A DNA stretch of 64,000 nt. It comes from Asticcacaulis sp. AND118. Lineage in GTDB: Bacteria; Pseudomonadota; Alphaproteobacteria; Caulobacterales; Caulobacteraceae. The position numbers and the translations under genes were made by a program. This document shows, piece after piece, positions 8,778 to 49,982 of this stretch. The notes beneath the pieces were generated by a model, which was given only the letters and a program-made list of their open reading frames with translations, was not told where the DNA came from and made no database searches. The DNA lies in assembly GCF_020535245.1 (NCBI RefSeq), contig NZ_CP084911.1:907001-971000 (forward strand), in the 5' to 3' direction. The first letter of the stretch is position 1. Each line of letters starts with the position of its first letter.

Positions 8778-10787
8778 ATGCTCAAATCCCCTGCCTCCAA
8801 AACCGTTCCGTCGCTGCGCAAGGCCCTTTTGTGTCTGTCAGCGGCGGCGGTCGCGGGCCTTGCCCTGCCATTGATGTCAACCCGCGCGCTGGCCGAACCG
8901 GTCAGTATTGAGGCGCTGGCACAATATGAACAGACGAGCGGCGTGACCATTTCGCCTGACGGGAAACACATAGCGGCCCTGGTGGCCGCCAAGGGGCAGA
9001 AGTGGCCCGTCATTTCCATTTGGCAGGCGGATGACCTGTCCAAGCCGCCGGTGTGGATTCCTTCGGCCACCAACCGCATTACGGGCGTTGGCTTTTTCGG
9101 CAATGACAAGATCATCTTTCGTGCCGAGCAGGAAATCACCCGTTCGGATGGTCGCTTGAGCTTCACTGTCAAGACCTATACGGCCGACATAGACGGTAAG
9201 AATATTACCGAACCCTTCAAGACCGGTGGCCGCAGCGAGGCAAACACCGTCGGTGACGCCGCCGCCGTATGGCATAACGGGTTATACGATGAGGACAAGG
9301 TCATCATCAGAAAACCGAATGCGGCGGGTGCATCCGAATATTACGAATTGAGTCGTAAGACCGGTGCGACGCGACTGGTGGCTAAGGACAGCGAAAAGTG
9401 GTCGTTCCTCCCCGCGGGCGTCAACCTTACGACGGGTGAGCCGTTGATACGTCAGTCGGTCGACGTACGTGACGGCGGTAAATTTTACCTGATTACTCAG
9501 GTCAAAGACATCGCCACCGGTCAATGGATCGACCATCCCGAACTGGGTTTCGTACTGGAGCAGCGCGTCGACCTCGAAATTCTCGGCTATGACTCGGACC
9601 CGAACAAATTGTTCGTGCGGACCAATCGCGGTCGCGACCATAGCGCGATTTACAGCTACGATATCCGCGCGAAGAAGTTCACCGAAGAGCCGCTCTACGC
9701 TAACGAGAAGTACGACATCGTAAATATCGGCTTCAAACACGATTTTACCAATAAGAAGCTGGAATATGTGTCGGCTTTGTATGTTGGTGGTCCATCGCAA
9801 ATTCAGGTTTTACTGGATGAAAAGTGGGCCGGGCTTCAGCGCCAGGTCAAGGCGTCCTTTCCGGGTAAGAATGTCAATTTCCGTATGAACCGTGCCTATG
9901 ACAAGGCCGTGATCACGGTCGATGCGGTAGACTTCCCGACCGAATACTACATCTTCCAGGACGGCAAACTGGCCAAGATCGGTAGCGAACGCCCATGGAT
10001 AGATCCCAAGACGCTCGGTAAAGGGGAGTTCGTTACCTACAAAGCGCGCGACGGGTTGGAGATACCGGCTATCGTCACCTATCCGCCGCAATGGACGCCG
10101 GAAAAGGGGCCCGTGCCTTTGATTGTGCTGCCCCACGGCGGTCCGTGGGCGCGTGATTATATGGACTGGGACGGCAGCGGCTGGCCGCAGTTCCTCGCCA
10201 CACGCGGTATTGCCGTGATTCAACCTCAATATCGCGGGTCCGAAGGCTGGGGTGACAAGTTGTGGAAGGCCGGTGATAAGGAATGGGGGCAGAAGATGTC
10301 GGATGACAACGACGACGCGGCGGCCTTCATGGTATCCAAGGGCGTTGCTGATCCTAAGCGTCTCGCGATTTTCGGCTATTCTTACGGTGGCTTTGCCGCC
10401 ATTGCTGCCAGTGTCCGACCGGACAGCCCCTATCGCTGCGCCATTGCCGGCGCGGGGGTTTCCAGTCTGGAGCGTCTCGGGAATTTCTGGGGGAGCAATC
10501 ATATCCAGCGCGATATTCAGGGTCATACCGTCAAGGGGATGGATCCTATGAAGAACATAGATAAGGCCAATATCCCCATTCTGCTCTACCATGGCGACCG
10601 GGATCGTCAGGCCGATACGGATCATTCGCGTATGTTCTATCGCGCTATGAAGGCGGCCGGTAAGGATGTGCAATATGTCGAAATCAAGGACATGTGGCAT
10701 ACCCTGCCGTGGCGTCCGGCATGGCATACCGAAACACTCACCTTGATTGAAAACTACTTAAAGTCAGACAAATGTGGCCTTATGTAA
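8778..10787 (+). CDS. Secreted S9-family (prolyl oligopeptidase-type) peptidase
   Basis: 669 residues. The signal peptide is about 1-40 (KALLCLSAAAVAGLALPL, cleavage after ALA). A beta-propeller-like region with a TISPDGKHIAAL motif comes next, then the alpha/beta-hydrolase catalytic domain. The nucleophile is Ser535 in GYSYGGF, the acid is probably in HGDRDRQAD and the base is the His in DMWHTLPW. The oxyanion-side motif HGGPWARDYMDWDG is also present. These enzymes cleave short peptides, here in the periplasm or outside the cell. The TonB receptor gene downstream on the same strand suggests joint peptide uptake and digestion (inference). A ribosome site CGGAG precedes the ATG. Confidence 0.92.
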   Translation: MLKSPASKTVPSLRKALLCLSAAAVAGLALPLMSTRALAEPVSIEALAQYEQTSGVTISPDGKHIAALVAAKGQKWPVISIWQADDLSKPPVWIPSATNRITGVGFFGNDKIIFRAEQEITRSDGRLSFTVKTYTADIDGKNITEPFKTGGRSEANTVGDAAAVWHNGLYDEDKVIIRKPNAAGASEYYELSRKTGATRLVAKDSEKWSFLPAGVNLTTGEPLIRQSVDVRDGGKFYLITQVKDIATGQWIDHPELGFVLEQRVDLEILGYDSDPNKLFVRTNRGRDHSAIYSYDIRAKKFTEEPLYANEKYDIVNIGFKHDFTNKKLEYVSALYVGGPSQIQVLLDEKWAGLQRQVKASFPGKNVNFRMNRAYDKAVITVDAVDFPTEYYIFQDGKLAKIGSERPWIDPKTLGKGEFVTYKARDGLEIPAIVTYPPQWTPEKGPVPLIVLPHGGPWARDYMDWDGSGWPQFLATRGIAVIQPQYRGSEGWGDKLWKAGDKEWGQKMSDDNDDAAAFMVSKGVADPKRLAIFGYSYGGFAAIAASVRPDSPYRCAIAGAGVSSLERLGNFWGSNHIQRDIQGHTVKGMDPMKNIDKANIPILLYHGDRDRQADTDHSRMFYRAMKAAGKDVQYVEIKDMWHTLPWRPAWHTETLTLIENYLKSDKCGLM

Positions 10788-10807
10788 GAGTTTAAATTAA
10801 TCCTCTA

Positions 10808-10836
10808 AAGCCCGCCGTTACCTCGGCGGGCTTTTT
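10808..10836 (+). terminator. Rho-independent terminator of the S9 peptidase gene
   Basis: Stem AAGCCCGCCG paired with CGGCGGGCTT around a short loop, followed by a T run. It begins about 20 bp after the peptidase stop codon. Confidence 0.85.
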
Positions 10837-11100
10837 ATATCGTTGTTATAAATTGAGTAAATTTAAAATAAAGCCAAGGATTGAAATGGCTTATTCCCCC
10901 TTTATGTTTTAAAGCGGTATTTTTGGTTGAAAATTATGACTGTGGCGTAGTGGCAACATCGATATGTTTTTGTTGCATTGCCAACGATTATAGCATTGCG
11001 TCCCAAATGTGACGGGATAGTGTCGCTTAGTCTCAGTTTTGATGAATGTGTCATCACTTGGGTGAAAAGTAGGCTGGTTCGTATCCTTAAGGAGGCCGTG
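10837..11100. other. AT-rich leader region before the TonB receptor
   Basis: About 260 bp, clearly richer in A+T than its neighbours. It holds the putative promoter and untranslated leader of the receptor gene. An upstream in-frame extension of the receptor (from 10978) is open but lacks a ribosome site and would bury the signal peptide, so it is treated as untranslated. GATTATAGC near 10984 could be a -10 element; no confident -35 was seen. Confidence 0.4.
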
Positions 11101-14073
11101 TTGACCAACCCCGTATCCCTAACCCGCAAATGGCTTTTAGCTGGCACCGTGCTGACAGGGGCCCTGTTCGGGCTGGCCCCGGCGCATGCACAGGAGGTCG
11201 CCCCGGTCCCGGCCGATGAACCGGCTGCCGACGAGCCCACCGAAATTGTCATCACCGGCTCGCGTATCCGCAGCAAGGAATACACCTCTGCTTCGCCGGT
11301 AACGATTATCACCGCCGAAAAGTCGTCTGCCGCAGGCCTGATGTCGGCGTCCGAAATCTTGCAAAGCTCGACGGCGGCTGCCAGCTCGGGTCAAATCAAC
11401 AACACCTTCACCGGCTATGTCGTCGGCGGCGGCGCGGGCATCAGCACCATTTCGCTCCGTGGTTTGGGCGCTCAGCGTTCGCTGGTGCTGCTCAACGGAC
11501 GTCGTATGCCTCCGGCCGGCGTGGGCGGTACGGTCGGTCCCGTCGATCTCAACACCATCCCGAATAGTTTCGTCGCCCGTTACGAAATCTTGAAGGATGG
11601 TGCATCGTCGATCTACGGCTCCGACGCTGTCGCCGGTGTCGTCAATGTTATTACGCGCTCTAACTTCGAAGGCCTGCAGGTCGATGGTTCAACCAACATC
11701 ACGGAGCAGGGCGGTGGTGAAAGCTATACGCTGAGCGGTATCTGGGGTAAGTCGTTCGATCAGGGGCACCTGTCGGTCGCGCTCGAAGGGTATGAGCAAA
11801 AGGCCCTCGTTGCCGGCGATCGCGACGCTTTTGCGTGCCCCACCGACAACTATTACATTAATGGTCAACGTGCCGACGCCATCGACCCTACCACTGGCAA
11901 GTACAAGTGCTATACCCATGGCGTAGAAGGCTATGTCGGCACCTATGGGCCGATCGAGGCCTTCGGTGGTCTGGCCTTCTACGGTAGCCGCGCGATCACG
12001 CCCGGCGCCACGACTGACGGTGTTCCGGGCTGGGCCTTCATTCCGTATGAGCGCCGCAGTTTCTCGGACCCTCGTGGCATGAGTGCGACCATCCTGTCGC
12101 CGGTCAAGCGTGCAAGCCTGTTCGTTCAGGGCGAGTATCGTCCGGCAGGGCTGGGCGGTGCAGAGCTGTATACCGAAATCATGGCTACCAAGCGTGAGTC
12201 GGAGCAGGTCGGCTGGGCGCAGTTCTTCCCGTACTATCATGAACAATCCACGGCTAACCCGTTCCGGGTCGGCACTGCACCTGTTCGCTCGTTTATTCCA
12301 TCCTGGCCGAACAATGCGACGCTCGCGCAACTGGGGTATCCGGGCCTCATCGCTAACCCGATCGTGCTGTATCGTGTTGCGGCAGATCAGGATGTCAGCA
12401 CCTATCGCGTCTTGGGCGGCGTGCGTGGCGACTGGGGCAACTGGTCTTATGACGCTTACGTTTCGCATTCGAAATCTACGGGTGATTACTCCACCACGGC
12501 CATTATCAAGGACCGCGTCGATTACGGTACGGGCACCAACCAACTCGACATCTCGTTGATGCCGGGCGGTGTCTGCGGCACCGGCGCTCCGGCGGGCTGC
12601 GTGCCTCTGAATCTCTTCACAAAAGAAACGCTGGAAGACGGTGTCTTCTCGCAAGCCATTCTGGACTACTACTTCACCACTGATCGGGGTTCGACTGAGT
12701 ACACCCAGACGATCGTCGAAGGGTCCATAACGGGCGATCTCTTCACGCTGCCCGCCGGACCGGTGGGTTCGGCCTTTGGTATTTCGCTCCGTAAGGATGA
12801 AATCAATGACGTGCCTGGTCCCCTGTCACGGACGCAAAACATCTGGGGCCGCACCACTGCAGGCATTACCGCGGGCGAAGACACTCTGAAGGAAGTCTAC
12901 GCCGAATTGGAAGTGCCGCTGATCCAGAACGTAACGCCGTTCGTTAAGGACTTGAAGCTGAACGTTTCTGCGCGTTACTCCGACTACGACAGTGTGGGTT
13001 CGGACACGACCTACAAGGTCGGCCTGAACTGGGCGGTTGATGATCGCTTCCGTATCCGCGCCACTCACGGCACTTCATTCCGGGCTCCGGCGCTCTACGA
13101 ACTGTACCTCAAAGATCAGTCGGGCTTCCTCAGCCAGGCGTCTGTTGATCCCTGCATCAACTGGGGCGCTACCGGCGAAGGCGGTCAACCTGTCAAGAGC
13201 CAACAGGTTCGGGAAAACTGTGCTGCCGATGGTATCGATCCCGATTTCTCCGGCGGTTCGTCTTCGGCCGAAATCTTCACCGGCGGCGGTCTGGACCTGA
13301 AGCCGGAAACCTCGCAGGCGACGACCTTCGGTTTCGTTCTGACTCCGCCCGAAACCGGCTTCAAACTGGCAGTCGATTTCTGGAAGATTAAGGTCGAGGA
13401 GCAAATCTCGGCCTCCGGTTCGGCGGTTGTCGGCGCCTGTTATTCGGCCTTTGATTTCCCGACGAACCGCTTCTGTTCGCTGTTCGAGCGTGGTCCGGAT
13501 GGCGGCATCGCCACCATCGACGCTTCCTATCGCAACATCCCGTCGCAGGAAACGAAGGGGATCGACTTCACAGCCAATTACGAGAAGGAGTTCAATCTCG
13601 GTACTCTTTCCATGGATTTCGAAGCCACCTGGATCAAGGAATATCTGTCGCAGCTCTTCCCCGGCGACGTCGTGTATGACTATCAGGGTCTGGTGGGTGA
13701 GCCGGAGTGGACGGGCCGCTTGCAAACGCGCTTCTCGCGCAATGACTGGCGCGTGACCTACACCGTCAACTATACCGGTCCTACCAACAACGTTGGTCGC
13801 TTCGGTGAAGATGGTGTCACGGATGTGTTCTATGCCCTTGGCGCCAGCTATAAGGCATGGACCGAAGCCTGGTACTCTCATGACCTGTCGTTCCAATATA
13901 ATGGCAAAAACTGGGGCGTGATCACCGGCATCTCGAATCTGCTTGATGAGGAACCTCCCGTCGTCGGCGCGGGTGACACGGTAAGCCGTCTCGGCAACTA
14001 TCCGCTGTCGAGCCAGTATTACGAAGGTTACCTTGGACGTCAGTTCTTCCTGCGTCTGACCAAAACCTTCTAA
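11101..14073 (+). CDS. TonB-dependent receptor (TTG start)
   Basis: 990 residues from a TTG at 11101. That TTG has a perfect AAGGAGG ribosome site five bases upstream, and the start puts the signal peptide (LTRKWLLAGTVLTGALFGLA, cleavage after AHA) at the N-terminus. A TonB box (TEIVITGSRI) is followed by the plug (ISLRGLGAQRSLVLLNGRRM, KDGASSIYGSDAVAGVVNV). A large 22-strand barrel ends in the typical aromatic C-terminus (FFLRLTKTF). It belongs to the group of big Caulobacterales and Xanthomonas receptors that often import sugars or peptides. The upstream secreted peptidase favours a peptide substrate (inference). Confidence 0.95.
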   Translation: MTNPVSLTRKWLLAGTVLTGALFGLAPAHAQEVAPVPADEPAADEPTEIVITGSRIRSKEYTSASPVTIITAEKSSAAGLMSASEILQSSTAAASSGQINNTFTGYVVGGGAGISTISLRGLGAQRSLVLLNGRRMPPAGVGGTVGPVDLNTIPNSFVARYEILKDGASSIYGSDAVAGVVNVITRSNFEGLQVDGSTNITEQGGGESYTLSGIWGKSFDQGHLSVALEGYEQKALVAGDRDAFACPTDNYYINGQRADAIDPTTGKYKCYTHGVEGYVGTYGPIEAFGGLAFYGSRAITPGATTDGVPGWAFIPYERRSFSDPRGMSATILSPVKRASLFVQGEYRPAGLGGAELYTEIMATKRESEQVGWAQFFPYYHEQSTANPFRVGTAPVRSFIPSWPNNATLAQLGYPGLIANPIVLYRVAADQDVSTYRVLGGVRGDWGNWSYDAYVSHSKSTGDYSTTAIIKDRVDYGTGTNQLDISLMPGGVCGTGAPAGCVPLNLFTKETLEDGVFSQAILDYYFTTDRGSTEYTQTIVEGSITGDLFTLPAGPVGSAFGISLRKDEINDVPGPLSRTQNIWGRTTAGITAGEDTLKEVYAELEVPLIQNVTPFVKDLKLNVSARYSDYDSVGSDTTYKVGLNWAVDDRFRIRATHGTSFRAPALYELYLKDQSGFLSQASVDPCINWGATGEGGQPVKSQQVRENCAADGIDPDFSGGSSSAEIFTGGGLDLKPETSQATTFGFVLTPPETGFKLAVDFWKIKVEEQISASGSAVVGACYSAFDFPTNRFCSLFERGPDGGIATIDASYRNIPSQETKGIDFTANYEKEFNLGTLSMDFEATWIKEYLSQLFPGDVVYDYQGLVGEPEWTGRLQTRFSRNDWRVTYTVNYTGPTNNVGRFGEDGVTDVFYALGASYKAWTEAWYSHDLSFQYNGKNWGVITGISNLLDEEPPVVGAGDTVSRLGNYPLSSQYYEGYLGRQFFLRLTKTF

Positions 14074-22024: not shown

Positions 22025-23107
22025 ATGAGCGGTTTCGAGATCGGCGTCTTCATTCCTATCGGCAATAACGGCTGGCTCATCTCGGAGAATTCGCCGCAAT
22101 ACATGCCGAGTTTCGACCTCAACAAGGCAATCGTGCAAAAGGCCGAGGGCTACGGTCTCGACTTCGCCCTGTCGATGATTAAGCTGCGCGGCTTCGGCGG
22201 CAAGACGCAGTTCTGGGAGCACAATCTCGAAAGCTTCACCCTGATGGCCGGGCTGGCGGCGGTGACGTCGAAGATCAAGATCTTCGCCACGGCGGCGACC
22301 CTGACCCTGCCGCCGGCGATCGTGGCGCGCATGGCCTCGACCATCGATTCGATCAGCCATGGCCGCTTCGGCATCAACCTCGTCACCGGCTGGCAGAAGG
22401 CCGAATACGATCAGATGGGCCTGTGGCCAGGCGAGCAACACTACCTGAAGCGCTACGACATGCTGAGCGAGTACGCCCAGATCCTGCGCGACCTGTTCGA
22501 CACGGGAGTCTCGGATTTCAAAGGCGAATATTTCGAGATGACGGACTGCCGCGTCAGCCCGAAACCGAGCGTGCCGCCCAAGATCATTTGCGCCGGATCG
22601 TCGGATGACGGACTGGCCTTTTCGGCGAAATACGCCGACTACGCCTTCTGTCTGGGGGTGGGCGTCAATACGCCAAAGGCCTTTGAATTCAATAACAAGC
22701 GCCTGAAAGCGGCCACCGACAAAACCGGGCGAGACGTCAAGACCTTCGTGCTGATGATGGTCATTGCCGACGAGACGGACGAAGCCGCCGAAGCCAAATG
22801 GCAGTCCTACCGCGACGGCGTAGACGAAGACGCCGTCAAGTGGCTCAAGGCCCAGTCGGCCCCCAATGCGGTCAACAAGACGACCAATGTGGTGCAGTTG
22901 TCCGACACGGTGTCGGCGGTGAATATCAATATGGGGACGCTGGTCGGCTCCTATGCCAAGATCGCCGCCATGCTCGACGAAATGGCCGAGGTCGAAGGCA
23001 CGGGCGGCGTGCTCCTGACCTTCGACGACTTTATCAAGGGCATGGACGACTTCGGGCAGAAGATCCAGCCGCTGATGAAGACGCGGACACATATTCAAGG
23101 CGTGTAA
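22025..23107 (+). CDS. rutA: Pyrimidine monooxygenase RutA (flavin-dependent, luciferase-like)
   Basis: 360 residues, bacterial luciferase-like TIM barrel. It starts right after the rutD stop (TAAATG). Typical segments are [54 protein letters not shown] and [11 protein letters not shown]. RutA uses FMNH2 and O2 to open the uracil ring between N3 and C4, giving ureidoacrylate. It needs a flavin reductase (RutF), which is not encoded nearby. The 3' end overlaps the convergent oxidoreductase gene by 13 bp. The order B-C-D-A differs from the E. coli order rutABCDEFG. Confidence 0.95.
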
Positions 23108-42081: not shown

Positions 42082-43533
42082 ATGACGGTTCAGGGTATCA
42101 AGCCCCTGCGCGACGGCGTGCTGGCGGGCGCATTGGTGTTCGGCGTGGCGTTGGTGGCGTCGCTGGCGGTTTATATGACGGCGCAGCATGGCATGAAGAC
42201 CGAGATTCGCGACAATCTGAGCGGGCTCTCGAATCAGGCCGCGGTGCTGCTGGATGCCGAAACCCTTTCGACCTTCACATCCGGGACGGACAAGGCGGGC
42301 GCCGATTATCAGAAGGTCGCTGCGCCGTTTCAGAAACTGGTCGATGCCGACAAGCGTCTGGCCTTCATCTACGCCATGGTCGAGCGCGAGGGTAAGGTCT
42401 ATTTCGTCATGGATGTGCAGCCGACCGGCAGCGCCAGTGAACCCTCGGCGGTCATGGAGGAGTATAAAGACGCCTCGCCCCTTCTGGTTCAGGCCTTCCG
42501 CGACCGCAAGGCTGCGACCGAAAGCGAACCGGTTACCGATAAATGGGGCACCTTCCTGTCCGGTTATGCGCCCTATACCGATGCTTCGGGGCAGTTTGCC
42601 GGTCTGGTCGGGGTGGACATCACGCTTAAAGAATATCAGGCCAGCCTCAATCGCATCCGCCTGGCGCTGCTGATCGGTCTGGGGCTGGCCGCCCTGTGCG
42701 CGGTCGGCGTCGGCCTTGGCGTCTATCGGGCGCGTCAGGTCATGGCCCGCTCGCGTCAGGCCGCGGCGGAACAGGCGCAGCGCATCAGCGACATGGAGCG
42801 TCAGCGTCAGGAAACCGAAGCGGACGAGGCCGAACGTGCTGCGCAACTGCGCCGCCGCACGCTGAATACGCTGGCTGACGAACTGGAGGCTTCGGTAACG
42901 ACGGTGGTCAGCGAAGTGGTATCGGCCACGGCTCTGCTGAAAGGCGAAGCCGATAATGTCACCCACATTGCGCAGGACACCAAAACGCGCACCCAACGCG
43001 TTTCTGGTATTTCGCAGGATGCCGCCTCCAACTCCGCTCAGGTGGCGGCCGCCGCTGAAGAACTGACGGCCTCCATCGCCGCCATCCGCGAACAGGCCGA
43101 ACACGCCGCCGCCGTGGTGAAGGTGGCCTCGGATAAGGGCGATACGGCCAAGTCGGTTATTCAACGCTTAAGCGAATCGTCGGGTCGTATCGGCGATGTC
43201 GTCGGCCTGATCAACACGATTGCTGGGCAAATCAACCTCCTGTCGCTCAATGCAACGATTGAGGCGGCGCGCGCGGGTGAGGCGGGTCGCGGCTTTGCCG
43301 TTGTGGCCTCTGAGGTCAAGGCCCTGTCCAATCAGGTGTCAAAAGCGCTGGGCGATATTTCGGCGCTGGTCGGCGCGATCCAGTCGGAAACCCAGTTGTC
43401 GGTCGAGGCGATGAACGACATCCTCCATACCATTGCCGAGATTGAGGCCGGCACCGGTGTCATTGCCGAAGCCGTGGGTCAGCAGTCGCAGGTGACAGCG
43501 GAAATTTCGCACACTATTTCGATGTCGGCATAG
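42082..43533 (+). CDS. Methyl-accepting chemotaxis protein, 3' end truncated at a deletion junction
   Basis: 483 residues. Helix 1 is at about 12-34. A periplasmic Cache-like sensor domain follows ([40 protein letters not shown]), then helix 2 at about 196-215 and a cytoplasmic signalling domain with hairpin tip [32 protein letters not shown]. The last residues ([13 protein letters not shown], then stop) end abruptly: from about 43519 the DNA matches the antisense of a TonB receptor gene. The usual last helix turns and tail are missing, although the signalling tip is intact. Function may be partly retained. The ribosome site is GACGGAAG. Confidence 0.85.
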
Positions 43534-44642
43534 GACCGCGAGCCTTCAAACGGCGTAAAGTCGCCGTCGGACTTCGACACCTGACGACCATTGTCCGCAG
43601 CTGTGATCGAGGTCAGGGTGTAGTCGCCGCGCGACCAGTTAAGTGTCAGCGTTGCGCCTGTCTGATCGGTCTTGGAAGAGCCATCCACATTGGACGCACC
43701 GACATCGGGAGCCTTGGTTGCGGCGTTCCCGTAGTCATCAAAGGCCGCGCTGGCGCCTTTGAAGGTCGCATTGTCGGGATAGGCCGGCTCGATATAGCGC
43801 GCAATCGGCGTACCGTCCGAGTTGCGGGCCCGCAGCGACAATAGCGCTTCGAAATCGTCGTTCGGACGATAGAGCAACTGGAAGCGGACGGCGGAGTCGT
43901 TCACCTTGCCGAAATCATCTTCCCCCGTGACTTTGTTGGTCGCTATGCCGCCGCGCTTTTCTGTACTGAACGAGAGACGTGCCGCCAGTGTTTCGGACAA
44001 CGGACCCGTCACGGCGCCCTGTGCGTTATAGCTGTCGAAATTACCCAGCCCCACGCGCGCAAAGCCGCCCGGCGTAAACTGCGGCTTGCGCGAGACGTAG
44101 TGGATCGCCCCGCCGACCGTATTCTTGCCCCACAGCGTGCCTTGCGGCCCCCTGAGCACTTCGACGCGATCAAGATCGAAGGCCGGAAAGGCCTGAAACC
44201 AAGGCGCGTTCAGATAGACTTCGTCTATATAGACACCGACCGGGTTGACGACATTGGCCGCCGGATCGTTGGAGCCGATGCCGCGGATGAACCAGCGCGG
44301 GCGATTGCGCGACTCGGTCTGCGCGGCAGAGGCGTTGGGGATAAAGCGCACCACGTCACCGGCCGAGCGGATTTCCTGCCGCTCCAGCGCGATGCCTGAA
44401 ACCACGCTGAGGGCGGTCGGCACCTTCTGGGCGCTTTCCGAACGTTTGTTGGCCGTGACCACTACGGTTTCAACGCTGCCGGCCTTGTCATTGCGGCGCA
44501 GGGCGGCTTCTTCGGCGGCTTGACGTGTGATCGACTGATCGTCCGCCGGTGTCGTCTCATCTGCAAAGGCGGGGACCGTAAAGGCAAGGAGAGTCGTGGA
44601 GGCGAGCCACAGCGCGCGCCGTCCGATAAGGGAGGTCGTCAT
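43479..44642 (-). pseudogene. TonB-dependent receptor, truncated to its N-terminal half
   Basis: Reads 387 residues: signal peptide (ending AFA), TonB box (ETVVVTANKR), complete plug (SAGDVVRFIPNAS, RGIGSNDPAANVVNPVGVYIDEV, DRVEVLRGPQGTLWGKNTVGGAIHYVS) and the first few barrel strands. Homology stops at about SRSYADIE. The last 11 or so residues ([11 protein letters not shown]) are antisense of the chemoreceptor gene. Receptors of this type have about 700-800 residues, so roughly half the barrel is gone and no pore can form. It lies 27 bp after the DszB-like gene on the same strand and probably once imported that protein's substrate. Confidence 0.85.
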
Positions 44643-44669
44643 AAGAAAAGCTTCTTTTTATCTGTCGGG

Positions 44670-45737
44670 TTATTGCGCGGCGATCGCGCTTTCGAGGGCT
44701 TCAAAGCCCGTGTAGGAAATCCACTTGTGAACGTCGAAATCGGTCTTCAGGAAGCCATGGCGGAACAGGAAGTCCTTGAAATCCCCCAGAGCTGCGATCG
44801 CCTCCTCATTCAGGAAGGTGTCGAGGTTTTGATGCACGTTTTCGCCATAGGCCGCGCGGACCAGATCGGGGTAACTCGACGTTTCCCGCGCGATGAAATC
44901 ATGGGTTTCGGCGGGGTGCTGACGCGCCCATTCCCCAGCCTGCACCACACGACGGAGAAAGCGCGCGACGATGTCGGGACGGGCATCGAGCAGGGCCTGA
45001 TCGACCGTCAGGGTGCGTGGCGCGCCATTGTTGATGCGGACCTTCGGATCGGGGTGGAAGCCAATATCTGTGACCACGTGGGCGGCAAGGGCGCGCGTAA
45101 TTTCAAGACCGGCGACACCCTTGACGAAGATGGCGTCAACGTCACCGTTGAGCAGGGCCTTGATCTCCGCAAAATAGCCCGAACGGCGGCGAATCCGGCG
45201 CCCTGAGCCGTCGATGTCGGCCCCGGCATCGGAAAGGGCCGGCGCCACTACATCGACGAGTTCGACATCTGTCAGCCCAAGGCCTTCCAGTCGCAGCACC
45301 TGATCGTAGGCCCGCAGCGCCGTGGCCCGGTTGAAGTCGATAGAACCGGGGTTTACGGGCAGGGCGAGGCGACGCCCCTTGAGGTCCTTGCTCGTGGAAA
45401 TGCGGGAACCGGGCAGAGTAATCACCAGCAGGGACTCATCTGTCCAGTTCAGGCCGATAACGCGCGTTTCGCGTCCATTGGCCTTGGCCCAGATGGCCGG
45501 TATATTTCCTCCTTGTCGGAAGGAGTTTTTCAGGGTGTGATCGAAGTGCGATTCCTTTACCGTCGGATCGAGACTTTCCTGAAGGGATTTCAATTCCAGC
45601 CCTTCGGCGGCAAATTCATCGCGAAAATAGCCGAGTTGAACCGCAAGACCCAGTGGCGTCGGGACGGGGCAACGCGTGTACCAGAGGTTTGGAATTGTCT
45701 CTGAAAAAGCAGAATTTTGTGGTATATCAGCGCTCAT
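44670..45737 (-). CDS. SsuA/NrtA-fold protein of the DszB (sulfinate desulfinase) type
   Basis: 355 residues from the ATG at 45737 (GAAAGG upstream); no signal peptide from this start. The fold is that of ABC sulfonate/nitrate-binding proteins. Three sites match the catalytic residues known for 2'-hydroxybiphenyl-2-sulfinate desulfinase (DszB Cys27, His60, Arg70): Cys23 in YTRCPVPTP, His64 in KESHFDHT and Arg74 in NSFRQGGNIP, with the same His-Arg spacing. GDVDAIFVKG also matches GDVDALYSW of DszB. It may cleave a C-S bond of an organosulfur compound or be a cytoplasmic or anchored binding protein. It is cotranscribed with the broken TonB receptor gene. Family fold sure; enzyme activity is an inference. 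Confidence 0.7.
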   Translation of the reverse strand: MSADIPQNSAFSETIPNLWYTRCPVPTPLGLAVQLGYFRDEFAAEGLELKSLQESLDPTVKESHFDHTLKNSFRQGGNIPAIWAKANGRETRVIGLNWTDESLLVITLPGSRISTSKDLKGRRLALPVNPGSIDFNRATALRAYDQVLRLEGLGLTDVELVDVVAPALSDAGADIDGSGRRIRRRSGYFAEIKALLNGDVDAIFVKGVAGLEITRALAAHVVTDIGFHPDPKVRINNGAPRTLTVDQALLDARPDIVARFLRRVVQAGEWARQHPAETHDFIARETSSYPDLVRAAYGENVHQNLDTFLNEEAIAALGDFKDFLFRHGFLKTDFDVHKWISYTGFEALESAIAAQ

Positions 45738-46292
45738 CTGATGAGCCTTTCTGAAGAAAATGGCAAGGCGGGAGCGACGCGCAGCCCCGTCTGCTGGTGG
45801 CGCGCAATCAGACTTGTCGTGGAATTCGGTGGGTCGCGGCGTTGACGTCAAGCGATACCTAACCTGCGCCTCGCTGCGTGCGTCGGCGTTGATTAATTCC
45901 TACTAATATAATTTTATATAAGCAAATTAGAAATTCTAGCGTCACTCGCGACTGGGGCTAATGGTCCGCGGGATATCTCTACACCCCGTGCCGTGAGTGG
46001 CTAATTTAGCGCAGGCATGGCTGGATTACAGATTGTGCGAAAAGTTAAACAGGCCCGGAGCGATCGCGCCCAGACAAATAATTCCGCCTTGATCAGATGT
46101 CCGTTTTCGGCATCACAACTGTACGCGGCAACGAATGTCCGCTGGGGGCGCTCAGGTGCCAACTAACAATTATGGCTTATCCTGTTGCGCGACTGGGCCC
46201 GCATTATGAATTGAGACGATTCCGCTAGGCTGCGTAAAGCCTAGCTTCAATGCACTCGTCACCCGGACAAACACATTTGAACCTTTGGTTTT
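45738..46292. other. Intergenic region with AT-rich block, no gene recognised
   Basis: 555 bp. A strongly AT-rich block at about 45890-45935 probably carries the promoter of the DszB-like operon. An open frame of about 60 codons on the minus strand (stop near 46001) has no start signal and no resemblance I can name; it could be a gene remnant. A small hairpin (GCTAGGCT / AGCCTAGC, 46224-46245) lies after the peptidase stop but has no T run. Confidence 0.45.
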
Positions 46293-48644: not shown

Positions 48645-48702
48645 CGGGTAATCTCGGGAAATTACCCGTTTTGACCCGATTTTGCTTACCCCTTGCTTAC
48701 CC
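48645..48702. repeat. Left arm-type integrase sites
   Basis: A CGGGTAAT / ATTACCCG inverted pair (48645-48668) is followed by the tandem TTGCTTACCCC-TTGCTTACCC (48682-48702). The tandem, with one more T in front (48681-48702), recurs exactly at 63814-63835 near the other end. Repeated TTACCC units at both ends, close to the core, are what arm-type integrase or excisionase binding sites look like. Confidence 0.65.
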
Positions 48703-48725
48703 GAAGGGGCGCATGTGAGTCCACT

Positions 48726-49982
48726 ATGCCCAAGCTGTCCGAGTTCAAGATCACCAAGGAAGCCGTTGATGCGCTGCCTGCCACAGACGCTGTCTATTTC
48801 GACAGCGAGTTGAAGGGCTTCGGGCTTCGAGTGAAGAACGGTCGCAAAACCTACATCATCCAGTACCGGAACAGGGATGGCCGGTCTTGTCGCCTGACCC
48901 TTGGTCAGCATGGTGCGTTGACACCGAAGGAGGCCCGCGTAGAGGCTAGAAAACACCTCGGACAGGTGGCTACTGGTTCAGATCCGGTTCAGGAGGCCAG
49001 GCAAAGAAAACTGGCCGAGACTGTCGAGGAGTTGTGTGTCTCCTACATGATCGCAGTTCGGAACGGCTTGATCCTGGGCAAAGGGGGCAAGCCGAAGAAG
49101 GCCAGCACGATCTACACCGATGAAGGCCGGATCAAACGCCACATCGTTCCTCTGCTGGGCAAGCGCAAGGTCCGCGACGTCACTACGCCGGACATCAATA
49201 AGTTTCTACGCGATGTCATGGCCGGAAAGACGGCTGACGATGTGAAGACCGGGCCGCACGGACGTGCTATTGTTGAGGGTGGCGCCGGCACTGCTGCGCG
49301 CACCGTCGGCCTATTGGGAGGCATCTTCTCCTTCGCGGTTTCCGAGGGCATCATCGACCGGAACCCGTGCCAGGGAGTGAAGCGGCCGGCAGATAAGAAA
49401 GCCAAGGTCAGATTGACGCCCGACCACTACAAGGCCTTTGGTGCCGCGCTGCGGAAGTCGGACGAAGATGGGGAGTTCTGGCAGGTCACGACGGCTCTGC
49501 GGGCCATTGCGCTGTCCGGATGTCGCTATACGGAGATAACTAAGCTACAACCCCGCGAACTCGACGCAGAGGGGCACGCACTTCGCCTTCAGGACACCAA
49601 GACCGGTGAGAGCGTCCGCCCCCTCGGTCAGGCCGCAATAGACGTCCTGAAGCCGCGCGTCGGCAACACACACTATGTCATCTATGGCGTGAAAAGCCCT
49701 GAAGGTCCATATTCCGGTCTCCCCAAGGCCCTGAAGCGCGTCCTCAAGAACCTGCCTCCTCATTCGAAGAAGGACTTCCCACCTTTGACGTTGAAGGGGC
49801 TGCGTCACTCCTACGCCTCGGTGGCGGGCGATCTCGGCTATTCTGAAATTACCATCGCCGCCCTCATCGGGCACTCATCGGCGAGCGTGACGGGCCGGTA
49901 TATCCATCATCTCGACGCAACTCTGATTGCAGCGGCCGATACGGTCTCAGCTTCCATCTGGAATTTCATGGAGCCGGCATGA
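48726..49982 (+). CDS. int: Tyrosine-type site-specific integrase
   Basis: 418 residues from the ATG at 48726 (a TTG at 48693 is also in frame). The N-terminal arm-binding DUF4102-type domain (DAVYFDSELKGFGLRVKNGRKTYIIQYRNRDGR) is followed by a core-binding domain and the catalytic domain. Catalytic residues are Arg in ALSGCRYTEI, His-x-x-Arg-type KGLRHSYASVAGD (LRHS), His in IGHSSASVTGRY and the nucleophile Tyr in GRYIHH. It catalyses integration and, with a directionality factor, excision at the tRNA-Arg cores. Its stop overlaps the ATG of the next gene (ATGA). Confidence 0.96.
   Translation: MPKLSEFKITKEAVDALPATDAVYFDSELKGFGLRVKNGRKTYIIQYRNRDGRSCRLTLGQHGALTPKEARVEARKHLGQVATGSDPVQEARQRKLAETVEELCVSYMIAVRNGLILGKGGKPKKASTIYTDEGRIKRHIVPLLGKRKVRDVTTPDINKFLRDVMAGKTADDVKTGPHGRAIVEGGAGTAARTVGLLGGIFSFAVSEGIIDRNPCQGVKRPADKKAKVRLTPDHYKAFGAALRKSDEDGEFWQVTTALRAIALSGCRYTEITKLQPRELDAEGHALRLQDTKTGESVRPLGQAAIDVLKPRVGNTHYVIYGVKSPEGPYSGLPKALKRVLKNLPPHSKKDFPPLTLKGLRHSYASVAGDLGYSEITIAALIGHSSASVTGRYIHHLDATLIAAADTVSASIWNFMEPA

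Follow-up and report, generated by a model that had tools for sequence, protein, structure and literature searches.

The gene dszB1, carried by the 64,000-nt stretch of DNA analysed here (the window), probably encodes a cofactor-free, cytoplasmic sulfinate desulfinase of the DszB type with a PBP fold, which would be fed by an intact operon in related genomes and left an orphan in the genome of the window. The protein is homologous to DszB, has the three catalytic residues of that enzyme in register and is closest to it in fold. The window holds just the 5′ end of a 12-gene operon that is intact in relatives; the rest, including the monooxygenases, is lost.

The DszB-like protein: frame, active site and fold

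The gene and two motifs within it are located as follows.

44670–45737, minus strand: dszB1, DszB-like gene for a putative cytoplasmic sulfinate desulfinase (phmmer against the PDB, fold, active-site alignment)
45663–45683, minus strand: motif WYTRCPV, residues 19–25, around Cys23 at the position of DszB Cys27 (alignments)
45507–45548, minus strand: motif HFDHTLKNSFRQGG, residues 64–77, with His64, His67 and Arg74-x-Gly-Gly (alignments)

The minus strand is open from an ATG at 45737 to a stop at 44670, which gives a protein of 355 aa; from an alternative TTG start at 45851 it would be 38 aa longer. On the plus strand, the translation of 44670–45737 contains two stops. The interval given in the earlier note, based on the sequence, is thus right, and the strand, unstated there, is minus.

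A phmmer search of all PDB chains at E ≤ 0.001 returns DszB as the sole match (2de2, 1.1e-13; 2de3, 3.5e-12). The alignment covers residues 16–340 and places Cys-Pro-Val-Pro, a His-Phe pair and Arg-x-Gly-Gly in register, while overall identity to DszB is 23–28% only. Cys23, His64, Arg74 and G76G77 align with Cys27, His60, Arg70 and the RXGG motif of DszB, exactly as had been proposed for the three catalytic positions, and the residues of HFDHTLKNSFRQGG correspond to DszB His60, Tyr63 and Arg70-x-Gly-Gly. In DszB itself, according to excerpts of PMC6100217, the replacement of C27 by Ser inactivates the enzyme, H60Q causes an about 17-fold loss, and R70 is part of an RXGG motif that is said to be conserved among homologs.

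By eye and by a simple hydropathy index, on which true DszB (M. yongonense) scores 1.8 and which therefore does not by itself decide the leader question, no secretion or lipoprotein leader is seen on dszB1, in line with the earlier claim that a signal peptide is lacking. The top 12-residue hydropathy is 1.02 in the first 35 residues and 0.12 within residues 1–30, against 1.57, 2.01, 2.24 and 2.62 in four true substrate-binding proteins (SBPs).

An AlphaFold2 model of the protein was built from 45 sequences (mean pLDDT 88.8, pTM 0.87), and Foldseek ranks DszB first among its matches (E 7e-21). The structural overlay that the earlier note had recommended was made with VIA-align and gives DszB as the nearest fold, with Z 32.9 and rmsd 2.9 over 316 residues for the substrate-bound form 2de3 and Z 31.2 for 2de2; the next entry is SsuA 2x26 with Z 26.3. 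The phylogeny it had also recommended separates two DszB and 60 family rows from seven SBPs (93/89) in an ML tree of 69 rows. The subsequent split of DszB from the family is less well supported (91/64), and the long branches urge caution. The rows comprise 50 of 157 DszB-like ORFs, kept at less than 72% mutual identity, nine genus or family sequences (three of which repeat kept rows), the window protein, two DszB, six SBPs and SsuA. The 157 ORFs are the 160 found in the fetched loci minus three that are duplicates by their last 300 residues.

The operon in Asticcacaulis and its truncation in the window

In a congeneric genome (G042), a gene 94% identical to dszB1 heads an operon in the order dszB1, TonB receptor (819 aa), SsuA-like SBP, MFS carrier, two permeases, ATPase, nitroreductase-family protein, dszB2, two SsuD-like luciferase-type monooxygenases and class II aldolase. 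The 12-gene operon occurs in the same order in six of 25 genomes of the genus (G042, G060, G068, G075, G141 and G153), the nitroreductase not being detected in the G075 stretch, and some DszB-like match at E ≤ 1e-10 is present in 19 of the 25. The SBP of the operon is separate from dszB1 and has a lipoprotein-like leader. No acyl-CoA-dehydrogenase-fold gene is found among the 12 genes of the intact operon. Against the SsuD subfamily model the two monooxygenases reach 106 and 277 bits, both far under the cut-off of 510, and they may therefore do something else.

The remnant of this operon in the window and its surroundings comprise the following features.

42082–43517, plus strand: 3′-truncated gene for a methyl-accepting chemotaxis protein (match to relatives over 482 residues)
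43517, no strand: rearrangement junction at which chemotaxis-receptor homology stops and operon homology starts (blastn, six chemotaxis-gene loci and the operon loci)
43517–44642, minus strand: stump of the TonB-dependent receptor gene, first 375 of 819 codons (Pfam, alignment to the intact G042 gene)
45738–46062, minus strand: upstream region in common with the intact G042 operon, which may hold a promoter (within 43517–46062, 91.4% identity)

Homology between the window and the G042 operon extends over 43517–46062 at 91.4% identity and then stops. The Plug is the only Pfam match of the TonB stump, with no barrel match, and the open frame of the stump continues to 43479 through foreign sequence. 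The chemotaxis gene has open frames of 545–549 in its five nearest relatives, and a blastn search with the relatives' genes reveals no second piece of it in the window. The junction at 43517 joins the two genes tail to tail, chemotaxis receptor and TonB receptor, each without its 3′ end. A search of the same genome with the G042 operon (L043 5600–17600) does not locate the missing part elsewhere: one long match, a piece of 1,226 bases, already lies in the window, and the other 14 are of at most 116 bases. Relocation of the lost part within the genome is rejected because there is no other long match. Nor was the second half of the TonB gene, which would mark the reciprocal junction of an inversion, found in this genome. 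The junction could conceivably be an assembly error. A tyrosine recombinase-like gene at 48693–49982 (429 aa), about 2.6 kb past the operon remnant, may mark the boundary of a mobile island.

The 64,000-nt window contains no homolog of dszA or dszC, as the earlier note had observed. Its sole luciferase-type gene (22025–23107) is RutA of pyrimidine utilisation, with 657 bits for a cut-off of 498, and is rejected on that ground as a partner of dszB1. The whole genome has two luciferase-type genes only, RutA being one of them, and the window has no acyl-CoA-dehydrogenase-type gene, the four of the genome all lying on another contig. A second DszB-like gene of the same genome (C2:985346–986317; L004 7305–8387) belongs to a distinct subfamily, with Tyr at the His64 position and REGD instead of RXGG. 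The two luciferase-type genes lie away from it, and its neighbours, judged by eye only, resemble a MarR regulator and an amidohydrolase.

The proposal that the gene is coupled to a TonB receptor, and that the pair imports and desulfinates an organosulfur compound, holds in part. The gene is indeed built in series with such a receptor and with sulfonate-type uptake genes, but the window copy of the receptor is truncated (375 of 819 aa) and there is no free-standing pathway without the monooxygenases. TonB receptor and desulfinase as a complete two-gene pathway are rejected because the receptor is a stump and the remaining operon is missing.

There is a considerable chance, if somewhat below even and weighed separately from the rivals discussed below, that the window copy is a non-functional remnant of the broken operon, whatever the chemistry of the family. 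The junction, the truncated receptor gene, the lack of another copy of the operon in the genome and the scarcity of luciferase-type genes all point in this direction. On the other hand, the frame and the active site are undamaged, as are 325 bases upstream, and the divergence of dszB1 from G042 is mostly synonymous (86 changed codons, 64 synonymous and 22 non-synonymous), although the greater part of it may have arisen before the break. The TonB stump differs from the G042 gene in 92 codons, 84 synonymously and eight non-synonymously. The larger non-synonymous share in dszB1 weighs, like the loss of the partner genes in this strain, against the desulfinase reading, and the codon changes do not by themselves decide whether dszB1 is still in use.

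Distribution, gene neighbourhoods and Cys-less copies of the family

The family is widespread but patchy. When genome contigs from 84,980 species were scanned with two motifs, one of which includes RxGGN, at least 569 related stretches matched. The best 80 were retained and represent Burkholderia, Paraburkholderia, Pseudomonas, Rhizobium, Agrobacterium, Sphingomonas, Massilia, methylotrophs and others. In an even draw of the phylum, 8 of 398 genomes have a match at E ≤ 1e-20, including the window's own genome and one partial match.

Neighbourhoods were counted by BLAST to 26 reference proteins (E ≤ 1e-8, 40% coverage) in 74 loci of at least 12 kb, the remaining six of the best 80 (of at least 569) being shorter and left out. 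The search for monooxygenases beside close homologs, which had been suggested earlier, was successful: 65 of these 74 loci have a luciferase-type monooxygenase nearby, whereas about 0.04 per locus would be expected, given that 12 carrier genomes have 148 such genes over 75.7 Mb (about 0.04 per 21 kb, with the scan loci themselves counted in). Among the best 80 of at least 569, the gap between the DszB-like and the luciferase-type gene is below 100 bases in 43 of the 70 loci with both. The same 74 loci, again from the best 80 of at least 569, have a permease in 69 cases, an SBP in 66, an ABC ATPase in 63, an operon-type TonB receptor in 34, a class II aldolase in 32, an acyl-CoA-dehydrogenase-fold gene in 31, a sigma-54-type regulator in 19 and a nitroreductase in 12.

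On a Sphingobium plasmid, the DszB-like gene is directly preceded by a monooxygenase of the NtaA/DmoA family (522 bits, cut-off 280), a family that also includes DszA. Plasmids of Sinorhizobium and Rhizobium show the order luciferase-type monooxygenase, DszB-like gene, acyl-CoA dehydrogenase, which is the dszA-dszB-dszC order by fold class. The rhizobial acyl-CoA-dehydrogenase-type genes score 104–110 bits for SfnB versus 36–44 for DszC, both under cut-off. The flanking enzymes in Sinorhizobium (SfnG 204 bits, SfnB 110, DszC 36, all under cut-off) are nearer SfnG and SfnB than DszC, and orthology to dszABC is therefore not claimed. These rhizobial cassettes (L061 10805–14206 and L063 8805–12213) adjoin dipeptide-type ABC transporters.

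The frequent permeases (69 of the 74 loci, best 80 of at least 569) would also suit a ligand-binding protein of the SsuA/NrtA type that serves transport or sensing and is not an enzyme, with the Cys shared by ancestry. Matches of dszB1 to Pfam NMT1 (41.5 bits) and NCBIfam SsuA_fam agree with such a role, as does the annotation of homologs, often as substrate-binding proteins only. However, the SsuA_fam score of 89 bits is below the curated cut-off of 163.5, fold and sequence are closer to DszB, the operon encodes a separate SBP that carries a leader whereas dszB1 has no obvious one, and the Arg of RXGG is missing in 16 of 16 SBPs compared. A purely ligand-binding role is thus unlikely. The earlier note had named three features of homologs as marks of a plain transporter binding protein, and the outcome is mixed. 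Permease neighbours are common, but 66 of the 74 loci (best 80 of at least 569) have an SBP gene of a different type. As to signal peptides, five further DszB-like proteins score 0.47 to 1.09 in hydropathy, under the four SBPs (1.57 to 2.62), on an index that is not decisive given the 1.8 of true DszB. The Cys is lacking in 32 of the 157 ORFs, 30 of them from scan loci with a Cys-bearing copy as well.

Across the 157 DszB-like ORFs of the fetched loci, Arg74, Gly76 and Gly77 are invariant, and the Cys23 position is occupied by Cys in 125, Ser in 27, Arg in three, Gly in one and Asp in one. His64 is kept in 139 of the 157; His67, the counterpart of DszB Tyr63, is the most conserved His of the family (151 of 157) and is invariant in a 24-row alignment. 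The Arg74 position is Ala in all 16 SBPs of the same alignment. All of the best 80 scan hits (of at least 569) have the Cys, His64, His67, Arg and Gly-Gly, although conservation of RxGGN among scan hits is partly due to selection, RxGGN being part of one of the two search patterns.

The higher conservation of His67 relative to His64 speaks against the desulfinase reading and would fit a DszB-fold family with other chemistry, such as cleavage of a sulfonated compound in a decarboxylase-like or hydrolytic manner, in which His67 would be the key residue. Structure comparison shows the same fold in Thi5, MqnA, MqnD and 4,5-dihydroxyphthalate decarboxylase, and the class II aldolase (32 of the 74 loci, best 80 of at least 569) points the same way; nevertheless, Cys and RXGG are retained as in DszB and the genes adjoin sulfonate-type importers and flavin monooxygenases, which makes a different chemistry improbable.

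Up to three DszB-like paralogs occur per locus, those within the scan loci having been found by BLAST alone. All 32 Cys-less copies retain the Arg and Gly-Gly, and 30 are in scan loci that also have a Cys-bearing copy. A Cys-less copy, mostly with Ser, is present in 30 of the 78 scan loci with DszB-like ORFs (best 80 of at least 569). Cys and Cys-less copies stand in tandem, 69 to 85 bases apart, in four Pseudomonas loci where the starts are clean (L109, L110, L121 and L139, about 10000–12200). An adjoining Pseudomonas pair, the first with Cys and the second with Ser, is also seen in L094, L097, L104, L105, L115, L119, L129 and L140. On the tree, Cys and other residues must have replaced one another at least six times, as counted over 53 rows with a noted state and with no state assigned to the nine extra tree rows and the SBPs. 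Evidence against a general partner rule comes from the 34 of 78 scan loci (best 80 of at least 569) with a single Cys copy only, and from the Asticcacaulis loci L051 (Gly) and L055 (Asp), which have no Cys copy in the fetched stretch.

Proposed function and comparison with known systems

For the dszB1 product we infer desulfinase activity, a cytoplasmic location and the following route. If the mechanism parallels that of DszB, the sulfinate would be held by Arg74 and the Gly-Gly turn, His64 would close over it, and Cys23 would drive C–S cleavage to yield bisulfite for sulfur assimilation. In the intact operons, the TonB receptor, the SsuA-like SBP and the ABC importer (or the MFS carrier) would import an organosulfur compound, presumably a sulfonate or sulfone as suggested by the importer and the partner genes. 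The SsuD-like FMNH2 monooxygenases would then make the sulfinate, which the two DszB-like proteins would desulfinate. In the genome of the window, the rearrangement removed everything past codon 375 of the TonB gene, which would leave an orphan enzyme that can act only on sulfinate from elsewhere or is heading to loss. Since SsuD-type enzymes liberate sulfite from sulfonates unaided, a desulfinase beside them is not obviously needed, which weighs against the desulfinase reading.

A broader reading is offered tentatively, as one that may well prove wrong: a large undescribed clade of DszB-type desulfinases may scavenge sulfur from sulfones and sulfonates in many Pseudomonadota (Rhizobium, Burkholderia, Pseudomonas, Sphingomonas and Asticcacaulis), in several lineages as a Cys copy together with a Cys→Ser (or Arg) partner of regulatory or substrate-holding function. 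The open-access literature, seen mostly as titles and the starts of abstracts, yielded no activity report or description of this clade. The clade seen here suggests that desulfination is a common bacterial sulfur-scavenging step beyond oil sites, and the recurring Cys-less copies next to intact ones lend themselves to a direct test of the role of the catalytic Cys. Under the broader reading, the rhizobial cassettes would become candidates for the benzothiophene desulfurisation genes of Sinorhizobium, whose strain KT55 is cited in excerpts of PMC3868597 for desulfurising benzothiophene. The clade is also a rich source of natural DszB-type sequences whose partners vary; in excerpts of PMC6100217, DszB has the lowest reaction rate of the dibenzothiophene pathway and is its bottleneck.

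DszB (2DE2, 2DE3) and the dszB1 product have in common the fold, the Cys-His-Arg-x-Gly-Gly site, the lack of an obvious leader and, in relatives of the latter, flavin monooxygenase neighbours. The two are only 23–28% identical, and Tyr63 and Ser25 of DszB are His and Thr in dszB1. In contrast to the dsz/bds 4S operon, the window has no DszA-type and DszC-type neighbours; the Asticcacaulis operon departs from the dsz operon by its TonB receptor, ABC importer and SsuD-like enzymes, and the family by its up to three paralogs per locus. Desulfination is not the sole route, since a dibenzothiophene-desulfurising Gordonia is reported to be without a DszB analog (excerpts of PMC11852219).

The E. coli SsuEADCB operon has neither a desulfinase nor a TonB receptor, and shares with the Asticcacaulis operon an ABC importer and an SsuD-type monooxygenase. 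The bdsABC genes of Gordonia terrae C-6, the closest experimentally tested parallel, convert benzothiophene to o-hydroxystyrene and comprise a desulfinase, a DszC-analogous enzyme and an enzyme annotated as alkanesulfonate monooxygenase (excerpts of PMC3868597). The likeness, drawn from the description and not from sequence, lies in the desulfinase and the alkanesulfonate-monooxygenase-annotated enzyme beside sulfonate ABC transporter genes; unlike bdsABC, the Asticcacaulis operon has no DszC-analogous enzyme, and the excerpted text of PMC3868597 names no TonB receptor. In Rhodococcus IGTS8, according to excerpts of PMC8557817, the protein peg4802, annotated "SsuA/DszB" and encoded in a chromosomal ssu cluster, is among those raised on dibenzothiophene. 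By annotation rather than sequence, this cluster resembles the intact operon in that genes annotated as DszB, SsuA, SsuB and SsuD are numbered alongside each other (PMC8557817).
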